This document shows, piece after piece, positions 1 to 60,914 of a DNA stretch of 64,000 bases (the stretch's first letter is position 1; the number at the start of each line of letters is the position of its first letter). Location of the stretch: the NCBI RefSeq assembly GCF_027889715.1, contig NZ_JAPJZH010000001.1, forward strand, positions 186,001-250,000. The letters run 5' to 3'. The notes beneath the pieces are model-generated. The model ran no database searches, was not told the DNA's origin, and saw only the letters and a program-made list of their open reading frames with translations. This DNA comes from Allohoeflea poritis (GTDB lineage Bacteria > Pseudomonadota > Alphaproteobacteria > Rhizobiales > Rhizobiaceae). The position numbers and the translations under genes were made by a program.

Positions 1-203
1 CCGACCAGCTTGAGAAGTCCTTCTCGGGCGGGCGGATCGCACTGGTGCTCGGTGCGGAGGGAAAGGGGCTGCGCCAGAAGACGCGGCACACGGTCAAGAC
101 ACTGGCCCGTCTCGACATGCCCGGCGCTATCAAGTCGCTGAACGTTTCCAACGCGGCCGCGATCTCGCTTTACGCCGCCCGGCAGTTTCTCGACAATCAC
201 TGA
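1..203 (+). CDS. rlmB: TrmH/SpoU-family 23S rRNA methyltransferase (RlmB-like), C-terminal fragment
   Basis: The window opens inside this gene; 66 C-terminal residues are readable in frame from base 3. Two SPOUT-class signatures are present: ALVLGAEGKGLR (motif 2) and SLNVSNAAAISLY (motif 3). They form the trefoil-knot SAM site of 2'-O-ribose methyltransferases, of which RlmB (23S rRNA G2251) is the usual bacterial match. The start and RNA-binding domain lie upstream of the window, so the exact TrmH subfamily is inferred. The stop overlaps the tail of the convergent acyl-CoA ligase gene by 7 bases. Confidence 0.85.
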   Translation, partial: DQLEKSFSGGRIALVLGAEGKGLRQKTRHTVKTLARLDMPGAIKSLNVSNAAAISLYAARQFLDNH

Positions 204-55312: not shown

Positions 55313-56203
55313 TTACCCGGAACTTGAGAACATCCAGTTCAGCGTCTCGCGCCAGTCGACCATTCGGATCGGCGTTCCATGACTGCCGCTCTGAAACAGG
55401 ACAAAGCGGATCGGATAAATCCCATCCGATGATGCGTAACGGATGCGTTCGTAGAGCGCGTGCTGCCCACGCCAGTCATAGACACTGTCGCGGCTGCCAT
55501 GGGCGAGCAGCACCGGAACGCCCGCATGGAACGCGGCACTGCGCACAAATGTCTCGTCCACGGTGCCGCCGAGGATAACGATCCCGGCCAGGCGAGACGA
55601 AATACCCGGATCATTGCCGCCTCTCCAGCAAAGGGTGCTGCCCATTGACCCGCACGCCAGGACGACCGGTGCGTTCGGCGCGGAATGCCGGATATAGGTC
55701 ACCAGCGTCTTAAGATGTTCGAGGCCCTTGCCGTCGAAACTCGGGATCGTCGGTGCATAGTAGACGCCGCCATTCCTGACGGTCAGGTTCTTCAGCCGGT
55801 TGAAATTACCGCCGAAAGTCCAGTCCTTCACGCCGAGGCGCCGGTCTCCACCGCGGCCATGAATGAAAATAACAGCAAATTTCGCCTTCCTGGTCGGGCC
55901 GACCTCATAGGCTTCCACGGCGGTATCGCCAGAGCGGATCGTGACGGTTCTTTGTTGGCGCTTTGGCCGCATCGAGACATAGTGCCTGTGAGCCCGCACC
56001 TCCGGCACCTGGTCCCTTTTGTCGATGTCGCGTTCCTTGCGGTAGTCGATTTTCAGAAAGGCACCGCCGTCGCGGCTTTCCAGCACCGACGGGTAGGAGA
56101 ACAGTTTGTCCTTGTGGGGTCTGAGCGAGATCGATTCGCCGGCTGCCGATGTCATCAGGACCGCAAGGGCGAAAATCACGACTGTTGGTCGCAGGACATT
56201 CAT
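55313..56203 (-). CDS. Exported alpha/beta hydrolase
   Basis: A 296-residue protein with an N-terminal signal peptide (TVVIFALAVLMTSAAG). The hydrolase core shows the oxyanion segment IFIHGRGGDRR, the nucleophile elbow ACGSMGST (Ser in G-x-S-x-G), a candidate aspartate in LAHGSRDSVYDW and a histidine in QSGSHGTP. A substrate cannot be named; carboxylesterase or lipase-like activity is likely. It converges on glnA with the terminator between them. Confidence 0.8.
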   Translation of the reverse strand: MNVLRPTVVIFALAVLMTSAAGESISLRPHKDKLFSYPSVLESRDGGAFLKIDYRKERDIDKRDQVPEVRAHRHYVSMRPKRQQRTVTIRSGDTAVEAYEVGPTRKAKFAVIFIHGRGGDRRLGVKDWTFGGNFNRLKNLTVRNGGVYYAPTIPSFDGKGLEHLKTLVTYIRHSAPNAPVVLACGSMGSTLCWRGGNDPGISSRLAGIVILGGTVDETFVRSAAFHAGVPVLLAHGSRDSVYDWRGQHALYERIRYASSDGIYPIRFVLFQSGSHGTPIRMVDWRETLNWMFSSSG

Positions 56204-56355
56204 CTCGTTACATGTTCACCCGTGTGAAAATCATCGAATCGATAACAGTCTAGTCAATGATCGGTGAATTTCTGGGACAATAGATGACAATGCACGGATA
56301 TTCCACTAATCTGGCGCGGCCAGCTGGTGTTTCTCGGAGCACCGGATGACGTTTG

Positions 56356-56541
56356 CGGGAGAGAGCTCGGGTCCGCCGGATCCGTGGCCGCCGAAGGGGA
56401 AAATGCCCATAATCTCTCAGGCAAAAGGACCGTAGACAGATAGGCACTCTGGAAAGTCGGGACAGCCGTCCCGCGCCGAAGGTGTAAGCGTAACCGACAG
56501 AGTTCCGGTTGCGCGAGTCTCTCAGGCTCCAGACAGAGGGG
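56356..56541 (+). ncRNA. Tandem glycine riboswitch
   Basis: Two adjacent aptamers with the family's conserved elements. Aptamer I (about 56356-56442) has GGGAGAGA, CCGCCGAAGGGGA, and ATCTCTCAGGC-AAAAGGACCG. Aptamer II (about 56445-56541) has CGCCGAAGGTGTAAGCGTAACCG and GTCTCTCAGGCTCCAGACAGAGG. It lies directly before gcvTHP, the usual target, and should raise glycine cleavage when glycine is abundant. Confidence 0.95.
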
Positions 56542-56589
56542 CGCTAACTCCGCGCGAAAGCGCGGATATGCGCAACCATGTTTGGAGCC
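56525..56589 (+). promoter_or_regulatory. Putative expression platform that can sequester the gcvT ribosome-binding site
   Basis: Bases 56525-56535 (GGCTCCAGACA, inside aptamer II) can pair with 56579-56589 (TGTTTGGAGCC), 11 bp with one G-U. The latter contains the gcvT Shine-Dalgarno GGAG and follows an out-of-use ATG. The intervening bases hold a 7-bp GAAA-tetraloop hairpin (56549-56566). The two structures are mutually exclusive with a folded aptamer II. Confidence 0.65.
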
Positions 56590-56592
56590 AGA

Positions 56593-57693
56593 ATGGAAAA
56601 ACAGCTACCACTCAAGCAGTTGCATGTTGCCGCCGGCGCCCGGTTCGGGCCGTTTGCCGGCTATGACATGCCGATTTCCTATCCGCTTGGCGTCATGAAG
56701 GAACATCTTCACACGCGGCAAGCGGCCGGACTTTTCGACATATCGCACATGTCTCATATCGAGGTCTGCGGTCCTCAGGCCGCGGATCTCATAGCGCGCG
56801 TTTGTCCCTATAACGCTTCGGCACAACCGCTGAGGACGGGACGCTACACCTATATGCTCAATGACCGGGCCGGCATGATTGACGACCTGATCGTCAGCCG
56901 TCTCGGCGACGAGCGTTTCCTCGTCGTGGCCAACGGCGCTTGCGCTGAAAAGGACCTGGCGCATCTGCAACAGGCTTCCGCTCAGTTCGATGCGAGCGTC
57001 ACACATATCCCGCGAGTCTTCCTGGCGCTGCAGGGACCAAAATCGGCGGAGGCGCTGGCAAAACTCATCCCGTCCAGCGGCACACTTGTCTTCATGCAGG
57101 TAACGGAGCTGGATGACGGAACGTTTCTGTCCCGGTCGGGCTACACCGGGGAAGACGGATTCGAGATCGGGCTTTCGCCCGACAGCGCCGAGGCATTTGC
57201 CAAACAGCTTGCGGGGGACCCGCAGGTGGAATGGATCGGGCTGGGCGCCCGTGACAGCCTGCGCATCGAGGCGGGCCTGCCCCTTTACGGGCAGGACATG
57301 GATGAGGACACCGATCCCGCAACCGCCGGCCTGATCTGGGCCGTACCGAAAGAATTGCGGTCCGGCGGCAGTTATATCGGCGCCGAGGCGCTTTCCGATA
57401 TTCTTGACAATGGCGTCAACCAAAAACGCGTTGGCCTGAAACCGCAGGGCCGCGCACCGGTTCGCGGCGGCTCGGTGCTGTTTGCCGGTGAAGCGCCGGA
57501 TGCCGCCGAAATCGGCCTTGTTACATCCGGCGGCTTCGGGCCGTCCTGCGAACATCCGGTGACGATCGGCCGGATCGACAAATTGGCAGGTTCTGCCGGA
57601 GACATCGTTTTTGCCGAGGTCCGCGGCAAGCGACATGCCTGCAGCATCGAAAAATTACCCTTTGTAGAACACAACTATTTCCGAGGAGGCTAA
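56593..57693 (+). CDS. gcvT: Glycine cleavage system T protein (aminomethyltransferase)
   Basis: A 366-residue tetrahydrofolate-dependent protein that releases ammonia and makes methylene-THF from the aminomethyl group on GcvH. Blocks: FAGYDMPISYP, GLFDISHMSHIEV, the folate-site DDLIVSRLGDERFLVVAN, SRSGYTGEDGFEI and LGARDSLRIEAGLPLYGQD. The GGAG at 56584 with 5-base spacing selects ATG 56593 over the in-frame ATG at 56578. First gene behind the glycine riboswitch. Confidence 0.96.
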   Translation: MEKQLPLKQLHVAAGARFGPFAGYDMPISYPLGVMKEHLHTRQAAGLFDISHMSHIEVCGPQAADLIARVCPYNASAQPLRTGRYTYMLNDRAGMIDDLIVSRLGDERFLVVANGACAEKDLAHLQQASAQFDASVTHIPRVFLALQGPKSAEALAKLIPSSGTLVFMQVTELDDGTFLSRSGYTGEDGFEIGLSPDSAEAFAKQLAGDPQVEWIGLGARDSLRIEAGLPLYGQDMDEDTDPATAGLIWAVPKELRSGGSYIGAEALSDILDNGVNQKRVGLKPQGRAPVRGGSVLFAGEAPDAAEIGLVTSGGFGPSCEHPVTIGRIDKLAGSAGDIVFAEVRGKRHACSIEKLPFVEHNYFRGG

Positions 57694-57696
57694 CCC

Positions 57697-58065
57697 ATGG
57701 CGACAACCTATTTCACGGAAGATCATGAATGGATCCGCGTTGATGGCGACGAAGCAGTCGTCGGAATTACCGATCACGCACAGGAACAGTTGGGAGATAT
57801 CGTTTTTGTCGAGCTGCCCGAAGCGGGTCAAAAGGTCAACAAGGGCGATGCGGTCATCGTCGTTGAATCCGTCAAGGCGGCATCCGACGTCTATGCGCCG
57901 GTTGCCGGCGAAGTCACGGCGGTCAACGACACGCTGGAGGGCGAGCCGGGACTGATCAACGACGCCGCGCAATCGGACGGCTGGCTCATGAAACTCAAGC
58001 TCGACGATGCGTCGCAGCTCGAGGGGCTGATGGACGAAGCCGCCTACAAGGCGATGGTTGGCTAA
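57697..58065 (+). CDS. gcvH: Glycine cleavage system H protein
   Basis: A 122-residue lipoyl carrier protein. The attachment lysine is K60 in [17 protein letters not shown]. It shuttles the aminomethyl group between GcvP and GcvT. Start is 3 bases after gcvT; a GAGGAGG ribosome site lies within the gcvT end. Confidence 0.97.
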
Positions 58066-58076
58066 CGGAGATTGTC

Positions 58077-60914
58077 ATGACAGTTCACAACCGCAAGGCG
58101 CCTGCCGACAGCAGGGATGAGATCCTGCCCTTTGTGGCACGGCACAACGGACCTGGACCGGAAGATGTCCGCACAATGCTGGCGGCCATTGGCGTTCCGT
58201 CCGTCGACACGCTGATCAGCCAGACCCTGCCCGAGGCCATCCGTTTTGACGGAACACTGGATCTTCCACCTGCGGCGGACGAGCATGATGCGCTTGCCGA
58301 GTTGCGCGCCAAGATCGAGGAAAATGTGGAAGCGCGGTCCTTCATCGGACAGGGCTATTACGGTTGCCGGGTACCGGCCGTCATCCAACGCAACCTTTTC
58401 GAAAACCCTGCCTGGTACACGGCCTACACGCCCTATCAGCCGGAAATCAGCCAGGGCCGGCTGGAAATGCTGTTCAATTTCCAGACGCTGGTCAGCGAGC
58501 TGACCGGCCTTCCCGTGGCCAATGCATCGCTGCTGGACGAAGCAACGGCCGTCGCGGAAGCAGCAGGCATGGCCTATCGGCATCACCGCATGAAGCGCCA
58601 TACCATTTCGGTTCACAACCGGCTTCATCCACAGTCGCGCACCGTGCTGGAAACCCGCATGGCACCGCTCGACATCAAGGTGAAAGACGGCGATCCGGAC
58701 GAGGACACAGCGGCCGTGGTGTTTTCCTGGCCGGACACGTTGGGCGGTTTCGAAGATCCGGCCGAAGTCGTCAAGAAGGCCAAGGATGCGGGCGCGCTCG
58801 TCATCGTGGTGACCGACCCGCTCGCGCTGACCTTGCTTCAGCCGCCTGGCGAATGGGGCGCCGACATCGTTGTCGGCTCGGCTCAGCGCTTCGGCGTGCC
58901 CATGGGTTTTGGGGGACCGCATGCCGCCTATATCGGCGTTGCGGAAAGCCTGACGCGCATCATGCCGGGCCGCCTTGTCGGGCAGTCCGTCGATGCGAAG
59001 GGAAATCCGGCATACCGGCTGGCGCTGCAGACCCGGGAACAGCATATTCGCCGCGACAAGGCGACATCGAATATCTGCACCGCCCAGGCATTGCTTGCCA
59101 ATATGGCGGCCGCCTATGCGATCTGGCACGGCTCCGAGGGCCTGCGGGCCATTGCGACGCGGGTGTCTCAATATGCCGATCGATTTGCAGGCAGCCTCAA
59201 GGCCGGCGGCTATACGATTGCCAATGACCGTTTCTTCGACACGCTGGCTATCGGGGTAAATGGCACAGCACATGATCTGGAGAAGAAGGCGCGCGCCGCC
59301 GGCTACCTGATCCGGGTTATCGACGAGGACACGGTCGGCGTTTCATTCGACGAGACGGCAAGCGACCAGGATTTCACGGAACTCTGCACAATATTCGGTG
59401 TCAGCGAAGACCCGGCCGGGGGCAAGACACACCTCCCCGCCGGGCTGCGAACATCGCCTTTCCTGACCCAGGGTGTGTTTCACTCCATCAGGTCGGAAAC
59501 CGACATGATGCGCTATCTCCGGGTTCTGGCGGACAAGGATCTCGCCCTCGACCGGGCGATGATCCCGCTTGGATCGTGCACCATGAAGCTCAACGCGGCA
59601 GCGGAACTCGCGCCCGTCTCATGGCGCAAGATCGGCAACATTCATCCCTTCGCACCGGCGGAACACGTGACAGGCTATCGCAAGATGGTATCCGAGCTTG
59701 AGGACTGGCTGTGCCAGATCACGGGCTTTGCGGCCGTCAGCCTTCAGCCGAATGCGGGAAGCCAGGGTGAGTTTGCCGGGCTTACCGCGATAAGGCGCTA
59801 CCATGAATCGCGCGGCGAAGGCCATCGCGATGTCTGCCTCATCCCCTCCTCGGCGCACGGAACCAATCCGGCCAGCGCCTCGATGTCGGGGCTGCGGATC
59901 GTCGTCGTGAAATGCACGGATGGCGGTGATGTCGATCTGGAGGATCTGAAGGCAAAGGCCAGCGAGAACAGTGCGAATCTTGCTGCGCTGATGATCACCT
60001 ATCCGTCGACCCACGGCGTGTTCGAGCAGAAGATCAAGGATATCTGCGATATGGTCCACCAGCATGGCGGGCAGGTCTATTTCGACGGCGCCAACCTGAA
60101 TGCCATGGTAGGGCTGTCGCGGCCTTTCGAAATCGGCGCCGACGTCTGCCACATGAACCTGCACAAGACGTTCTGCATTCCCCATGGCGGCGGCGGGCCC
60201 GGCATCGGGCCCATCGGCGTCTCGGAGCACCTGAAGCCATTCCTTCCCGGAAATCCGCTGGAAGACGGCAGCGGGGCCGTGGCGGCGGCGGCGTTTGGAA
60301 GCGCCTCGATCCTGCCGATCTCGTGGATGTATATCCGCATGATGGGCGCCGACGGGCTGAAGGCGGCATCGGAAATGGCAATCCTGTCAGCCAATTACCT
60401 GGCTGCGCGGCTTGGCAAGGCGTTCGACATACTCTATCGCGGCGACAACGGCCGTGTTGCGCATGAGTGCATCATCGACACACGTCCGTTCAAGGAGACA
60501 GCCAATGTCAATGTCGAGGATATTGCAAAGCGTCTGATCGACTATGGCTTCCATGCTCCGACCATGTCCTGGCCGGTAGCCGGAACGCTGATGGTTGAGC
60601 CGACGGAGTCTGAACCGCTGGCGGAACTCGACCGTTTCTGCGATGCCATGATCGCGATCCATGCGGAAATCATGCGTATCGAGCATGGCGAATGGAGCAC
60701 GGACGACAATCCGCTGGTCAACGCGCCGCATACGGCCGAGATGGCCATTGCCGGCAAGTGGACGCACGGTTACGACACCATGCTTGCGGTCGCGCCGGGC
60801 GGTGCGGCGCAACTGACATCCAAATACTGGCCGCCGGTTGCCCGGGTCGACAATGTCTATGGCGACCGCAATCTCGTATGCACCTGTCCGCCGATCGAGC
60901 AATTGGCCAGCTGA
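58077..60914 (+). CDS. gcvP: Glycine dehydrogenase (decarboxylating), P protein
   Basis: A 945-residue PLP enzyme that decarboxylates glycine and loads GcvH. It is the single-chain (homodimeric) form with two homologous halves. The PLP lysine is K697 in [17 protein letters not shown], and [12 protein letters not shown] and [10 protein letters not shown] are conserved. The gap from gcvH is 11 bases. It converges on lpxB with 25 bases between stops. Confidence 0.97.

Follow-up and report, generated by a model that had tools for sequence, protein, structure and literature searches.

A tandem glycine riboswitch upstream of gcvT in Allohoeflea poritis probably controls translation by sequestering the ribosome-binding site

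In the stretch of Allohoeflea poritis DNA analysed here (the window, 64,000 nucleotides), a tandem glycine riboswitch precedes the glycine cleavage genes. We consider it likely that this riboswitch is a translational ON switch of gcvT that works by sequestering the ribosome-binding site (RBS), its response to glycine and its ON sense being the parts that we infer. By computation, in predicted folds and in the covariation of related leaders, the strand that contributes to the pocket and P1 of aptamer II pairs with the RBS. Riboswitch control would probably extend to the whole gcvTHP operon. The sequestration put forward in the initial annotation of this leader is supported by class-wide covariation, by mutual exclusion between the pairing and aptamer II, and by the lack of a terminator-like site after aptamer II.

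Results

The gcvT gene, coding for the aminomethyltransferase of the glycine cleavage system (positions 56593..57693 of the window, forward strand), matches NF010093 with 467.2 bits (cut-off 459). It is followed on the same strand by gcvH (57697..58065; TIGR00527, 156.6 bits) and by gcvP, which codes for a single-chain glycine dehydrogenase (58077..60914; TIGR00461, 1297.9 bits). Among named sequences, the GcvT of Nitratireductor sp. XY-223 is the closest (87% identity), followed by those of a MAG from Rhizobiaceae (72%) and one from Pararhizobium (66%). Position 56593, already proposed as the usable gcvT start, is the most likely one, and the best NCBIfam GcvT models align from residue 3 of the protein that begins there. 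The Shine-Dalgarno sequence of gcvT, GGAG, occupies 56584-56587, and the ATG at 56593 lies five bases downstream. An in-frame ATG or GTG is found 15 bases upstream of the gcvT start in ten of ten close leaders (at 56578 in the window), where it overlaps the sequestered segment described below; no separate Shine-Dalgarno was seen before this codon in the window. A divergent gene (55313-56203, reverse strand; 296 amino acids) gave a borderline match to the serine hydrolase model PF12146 (27.2 bits, cut-off 27); at E <= 0.001, none of the NCBIfam models matched it.

The riboswitch is oriented in the sense direction upstream of gcvT, gcvH and gcvP, all genes of glycine metabolism, and both of its aptamers exceed the RF00504 gathering score of 32 bits. 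Aptamer I (56346..56442, forward strand; 63 bits) is canonical and carries CAGGCAAAAGGAC. Aptamer II (56444..56546, forward strand) scores 47 bits when 56443-56620 is searched and 52.2 bits, as a match to 56439-56546, in the genome search; it was missing from the Rfam search of the whole leader, probably since the 56439-56546 match overlaps aptamer I by four bases. Mapping the Rfam alignment to coordinates showed that most core positions of aptamer II are retained together with P1, whose 5' strand (56447..56451, forward strand) pairs with 56534-56538 in the aptamer fold. The segment from CAGG to GAC reads CAAAAG in aptamer I of the window and CTCCA in aptamer II. Both aptamers were readable in 136 of 148 leaders, and in these the segment takes 37 forms in aptamer I (CAAAAG in 64) and 102 in aptamer II. 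Since aptamer II is variable in the relatives too, agreement of the joining segment before GAC with the consensus cannot serve as a firm test of membership. Judged from these sequences, the variability of aptamer II fits a role as expression platform.

The 11-bp helix that the initial annotation had drawn between the 3' part of aptamer II and the gcvT RBS was recovered in full, with its single G-U pair: GGCTCCAGACA (the anti-RBS strand; 56525..56535, forward strand) pairs with TGTTTGGAGCC (the sequestered segment, which holds the Shine-Dalgarno GGAG; 56579..56589, forward strand). In the unconstrained fold, the anti-RBS strand is paired in this way with a probability of 1.00. According to the Rfam alignment, it consists of the 3' end of P3 (56525-56527), the joining segment (56528-56533) and the start of the P1 3' strand (56534-56535). 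The pairing therefore draws on bases needed by aptamer II, as had been claimed, and because both structures use P3 and P1 bases, the switch helix and the aptamer II fold are mutually exclusive. A 7-bp hairpin with a GAAA tetraloop, likewise anticipated, is present at 56549..56566 (forward strand) and forms the tip of the predicted OFF structure. Between this hairpin and the switch helix sits an extension stem that the initial annotation had not named, GCGC:GCGC, in which the 5' strand (56541..56544, forward strand) pairs with the 3' strand (56570..56573, forward strand) with a probability of 1.00 in the free fold and 0.70 when the aptamers are forced. The minimum free energy fold of 56340-56640 includes switch helix, extension stem and hairpin (z -3.4), and none of 100 shuffled sequences folds as stably. 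A consensus scan of 56200-56700 found no terminator-like site after aptamer II; it gave two terminator-like matches at 56311-56327, upstream of aptamer I.

A further complementarity was seen between GGTTGCGC (56507-56514, in P3 of aptamer II) and GCGCAACC (56570-56577), which lies directly before the switch partner. The two are fully complementary in the window, and among ten close leaders eight of eight positions are paired in seven and seven of eight in three. As a rival helix this pairing was rejected, having a probability of 0.00 in the folds and competing with the extension stem.

We compared the switch pairing of the window with chance. The 11-mer pairs with 56539-56595 at -20.2 kcal/mol, compared to -8.7 +/- 1.9 kcal/mol for shuffled sequences, and none of 5000 dinucleotide shuffles reached this energy. 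When both whole aptamers were scanned against 56539-56595, 19 of 300 shuffles contained a run of at least 11 bp. The duplex energy of the whole aptamers is ordinary, being reached by 594 of 1500 shuffles. Taken alone, the window sequence is suggestive; it provides modest evidence for the switch pairing and is not decisive. On sequence evidence, it is the comparison with relatives, and not the window alone, that raises the pairing above chance.

In the ten closest leaders (nine distinct), the switch helix is 89.9% paired, and all 11 pairs are kept only in the window. Broken pairs, counted over the nine distinct rows, fall at column 17 in five, at column 11 in three and at columns 12 and 13 in one each; an unprompted consensus fold of the ten leaders recovers the switch helix minus column 17. 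The aptamer strand is invariant in these leaders, and none of the switch-helix pairs has changes in both strands. Their compensatory changes are located in the extension stem (one of four pairs, with every cell paired in the nine distinct leaders) and in the hairpin (four of seven pairs, with 98.4% of cells paired). A fixed-register count over 33 near leaders gave 94% pairing at seven central positions compared to 28-62% when the register was slid, a count that leans to structure because its register is anchored on a GGAG-like motif. Covariation of the two segments among relatives, which had been named as a check on the proposal, is present in the order set and in the set from other orders of the class, as described below, but not in the ten closest leaders. 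With no compensatory change close by, the covariation belongs to the wider class, and the window is covered by homology.

RF00504 matches were obtained in 17 of 21 genomes of relatives, 274 of 297 genomes of the family and 254 of 297 genomes of the order. The order set comprised 187 loci, mostly the best-scoring among the matches listed, of which 143 had a gcvT match and 44 had none. Thirteen of the 143 were second matches on the same leader, which left 130; the aptamer II motif was present in 127 of these, three of which had no start by our rule. One of the three (L001) was restored by hand, giving 125 leaders, 86 of them non-redundant. Where the GcvT alignment began at residue 1, the start was set to residue 1. 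For each leader we computed the duplex energy between its motif and the 33 bases surrounding its predicted start, compared this to the energies obtained with the corresponding bases of every other leader, and removed row and column means (double-centring) before permutation. The prediction of starts included a Shine-Dalgarno term, which is identical for cognate and swapped pairs.

Among the 86 non-redundant order leaders, the cognate value was -13.02 compared to a non-cognate value of -11.22 (z -7.5; 0 of 2000 permutations), and with one leader per family (34 leaders) the signal persisted (z -5.4; 0 of 2000). When leaders were split by their aptamer II, a division that, like the fixed zone before the start, was chosen after inspection of earlier results on the order leaders, the 71 with a non-consensus aptamer II gave z -8.2 (0 of 2000), and no pairing signal was seen in the 15 with a consensus-like one (z -1.1; 297 of 2000). 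The fixed zone was adopted because a per-leader duplex test without it was weak, its partner region being long: 28 of 107 leaders reached p <= 0.05 and 14 reached p <= 0.01 against shuffles, and 18 and 4 of 107 did so against other leaders. A 13-base segment slid along the riboswitch of the 71 leaders gave its strongest signal at +4 of the motif (z -8.7), the segment homologous to the anti-RBS strand. Neighbouring offsets were also strong (-2, z -4.9; +10, z -7.5) and were flanked by shoulders (-14, z -2.4; -8, z -2.3; +16, z -3.2; +22, z -2.0), of which +16 and +22 fall at or just beyond the 3' end of the motif; from -110 to -20, |z| was never above 1.9. Chimeras of unrelated leaders formed at least five expected pairs in 630 of 852 cases, compared to 68 of 71 cognates. 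Blocking the aptamer segment raised the openness of the RBS zone from 0.32 to 0.54 in the 71 leaders and from 0.48 to 0.50 in the 15 consensus-like ones. Five gcvT leaders of the same family (L047, L043, L055, L015 and L016) have a consensus-like aptamer II and longer linkers.

We extended the comparison to 70 loci of the same class outside the window's order, taken by match score from a class sample in which 86 of 152 genomes had a match; two entries of the class listing that belong to the window's own order (G000 and G340) are not among the 70. The motif pattern and zone were those of the order set, with a slightly wider start-codon rule and more GcvT queries. gcvT was absent at two loci, and 43 of the remaining 68 passed the fixed pattern (z -7.1; 0 of 5000), the peak again lying at +4 (z -8.7); upstream offsets gave weak signals (-50, z -2.8, 0 of 500; -20, z -2.2). 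The other 25 comprised 21 loci without the motif and four without a start, and 17 of the 25 carry CTTTCAGG where the pattern expects CTCTCAGG. A relaxed pattern that allows one T, combined with a wider start rule, admitted 62 of the 68 loci and left out six (z -7.8). Removal of near-duplicates left 42 leaders under the fixed pattern (z -7.0) and 61 under the relaxed one (z -7.6; 0 of 5000 each). One leader of the class (L318) has a hairpin and then a T-run in the stretch from aptamer II to gcvT; some lineages may therefore make use of termination.

Covariation can be mimicked by shared ancestry. Variable leaders from the order and class sets were therefore matched to the nearest relative, by GcvT, whose segment differs, and the partners were swapped within the resulting 65 pairs (median identity 61%). 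The leader's own partner was better in 52 of the 65 pairs and worse in 12, with one tie (Wilcoxon p 4.5e-9); at 60% identity or above (37 pairs), 30 were better and six worse.

To locate the partner, zones of the message were compared in 133 leaders. The signal was strongest for -18..0 (z -12.6), the zone of the sequestered segment, and lower for -30..-14 (z -4.0) and -8..8 (z -5.2). Zones further upstream gave z -1.2 (-47..-30, 115 leaders) and z -0.8 (-63..-30, 28 leaders); on the coding side, 3..36 gave z -0.7 (229 of 1000), and 30..63 and 90..123 gave z -1.8 each (35 and 34 of 1000). In 114 of the 133 leaders, the best duplex within -40..+6 overlapped -12..-5. Because the zone test centres there, the covariation partner is the Shine-Dalgarno region. 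In a set of mostly gammaproteobacterial leaders (30 usable from 77 loci, without a redundancy filter), the motif gave no signal (z -0.5; 623 of 2000), and other offsets gave z -3.0 (-50), -2.3 (-8), -2.1 (-38) and -2.0 (-26). The leader sets include no Neisseria leader.

Energy calculations were less favourable to a simple switch. Forcing both aptamers changed the folding energy from -126.4 to -99.7 kcal/mol, a cost of about 27 kcal/mol, and forcing the core of aptamer II alone cost 13.8 kcal/mol; with such a gap, glycine could hardly reopen an OFF helix once formed. Since the sequestered fold is far more stable in the energy model, switching must depend on what this model omits, namely glycine, tertiary contacts and timing. 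When transcripts of increasing length were folded, the P1 stem of aptamer II had a probability of 0.75, 0.82 and 0.85 for transcripts ending at 56546, 56566 and 56574, falling to 0.18 at 56580 and 0.00 at 56584, so that P1 is lost as the RBS strand emerges. The P3 core of aptamer II had a probability of 0.02-0.08 for transcript ends from 56546 to 56574 and 0.40 at 56580. Given this weak P3 core, the model does not show the whole of aptamer II forming unaided, even before the RBS is made. With the aptamers forced, 56582-56589 were unpaired with probabilities of 0.27-0.78, compared to 0.00 in the free fold (long model), and the four bases of GGAG with probabilities of 0.14, 0.25, 1.00 and 0.24 (short model). 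The RBS is partly paired in the forced fold, and the modelled ON state is therefore not clean. As modelled, both the low probability of the P3 core and the partial pairing of the RBS count against a simple ON model.

A second gene was found downstream of glycine riboswitches. At nine loci (L077, L183, L160, L056, L129, L167, L185, L034 and L071), the riboswitch precedes a gene for a FAD enzyme resembling D-amino-acid dehydrogenase, and all nine downstream proteins tested, from the family and order sets, match D-amino-acid-dehydrogenase models (best NF009074 in eight, NF001933 in one). A tblastn search placed the flavoenzyme gene at 39 loci, 36 of them usable and 31 non-redundant. The same covariation test applied to these 31 leaders gave z -4.9 (0 of 5000), with z -1.5 for zone 3..36. 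Glycine or sarcosine may be the substrate of this enzyme. In the literature searched, no paper contained both 'glycine riboswitch' and 'D-amino acid dehydrogenase'. A genome of the same genus as the window (locus L017) has just one glycine aptamer match, a weak one (32.8 bits), and no gcvT match in the fetched stretch; a flavoenzyme match follows a short reading frame whose beginning resembles, by eye, that of gcvT. Gene loss or change may have left this leader behind.

Discussion

The mechanism that we favour would operate as follows. Without glycine, 56525-56535 would pair with the gcvT RBS at 56579-56589 and exclude the ribosome, the GCGC stem and the GAAA hairpin holding the two switch strands together. 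Were glycine bound during transcription, aptamer II would keep 56525-56535 in P3, the joining segment and P1, the RBS would then emerge free, and translation could initiate at 56593. The choice between the two folds would thus be made while the leader is being transcribed, with the help of glycine.

Control of transcription is an unlikely alternative, in which either a leader terminator or a hidden RBS that exposes the message to Rho would make transcript level the main output. A T-run of at least five occurs between aptamer II and the start in 6 of 132 leaders of relatives, and recruitment of Rho by a translational block is a possibility raised in PMC13104608. However, the scan of 56200-56700 gave no terminator-like site after aptamer II, and the covariation is centred on the Shine-Dalgarno zone, of which an intrinsic terminator has no need.

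We give slightly less weight still to a switch of the opposite sense, or to one that is partly blind to glycine, with aptamer I the only aptamer to bind it. Aptamer II scores below aptamer I, its CAGG-to-GAC segment is by far the more diverse of the two in the 136 leaders, and its P3 core is not favoured in the folds; it nevertheless keeps P1 and most core positions. The downstream genes degrade glycine, and ON is the sense reported in such a setting in PMC13104608. The same source describes an N. gonorrhoeae aptamer 2 mutant that still responds via aptamer 1, so a blind aptamer II alone would not abolish an ON switch. Very unlikely, finally, is a by-product in which a strand bearing CUCC or CUUC matches any GGAG and the riboswitch acts otherwise or not on translation: non-cognate pairs are also good, chimeras often pair and 11-bp runs do arise in shuffles of both aptamers, yet double-centring cancels each strand's average effect, none of 2000 or 5000 permutations matched the observed signal, and the nearest-relative swaps side with cognate pairing.

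RBS sequestration by an aptamer strand has a precedent. The gcvT leader of N. gonorrhoeae is described as a translational tandem glycine ON riboswitch in which bases of aptamer 2 pair with the RBS, a proposal supported there by mutations on either strand (PMC13104608, J Bacteriol 2026). The two leaders share tandem aptamers before gcvT and the lack of a predicted intrinsic terminator between aptamer 2 and gcvT; in both, the 3' part of the second aptamer (P3a, P3 and P1 in N. gonorrhoeae) is proposed to pair just before the gcvT start, with the same ON sense. N. gonorrhoeae belongs to another class, and sRNAs also target its RBS site (PMC13104608), which is probably not a defining trait of this type of switch. 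The window differs in that its support comes from covariation, in the extra stem and hairpin between the two strands, and in that gcvP follows in the same direction. The gcvT switch of Bacillus subtilis, as cited in PMC13104608, has the same aptamer class, tandem layout, gcv target and ON sense but works by transcription termination, whereas the window has no terminator-like site after aptamer II.

Barrick and Breaker (2007) describe translation attenuation as commonest outside the Firmicutes (PMC2258182). In their direct translation attenuation, with the RBS inside the aptamer core, access to the RBS controls translation, as proposed for the window. The criterion given there is a start within 15 nucleotides of the core, compared to 54 nucleotides in the window (56538 to 56593), and in the window a separate strand sequesters the RBS. 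In the literature searched, outside which most subscription papers fall, no paper is devoted, to judge from titles and abstracts, to this pairing in the Alphaproteobacteria. The mechanism is already published for N. gonorrhoeae gcvT, and broad comparative support for it was not found in the literature searched. The present analysis adds such support across many families of one class, Neisseria being the only mutational case found in that literature.

For Alphaproteobacteria in general, the evidence tilts, by a little, toward the view that the joining segment of aptamer II became an anti-RBS strand that evolves with each gene's own RBS. If true, this would account for the variability of aptamer II before gcv genes and for the greater constancy of aptamer I, with aptamer I as the main sensor and aptamer II as the expression platform. 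A second gene set, that of the D-amino-acid-dehydrogenase-like flavoenzyme, would use the same design, and the enzyme would likely be induced by glycine. Crum et al. report that which glycine aptamer is better conserved depends on the gene, and their model omits the expression platform (PMC6944388). The pairing offers a testable reason for this known unequal conservation: the variable aptamer in these leaders may be constrained by the RBS as well as by glycine.
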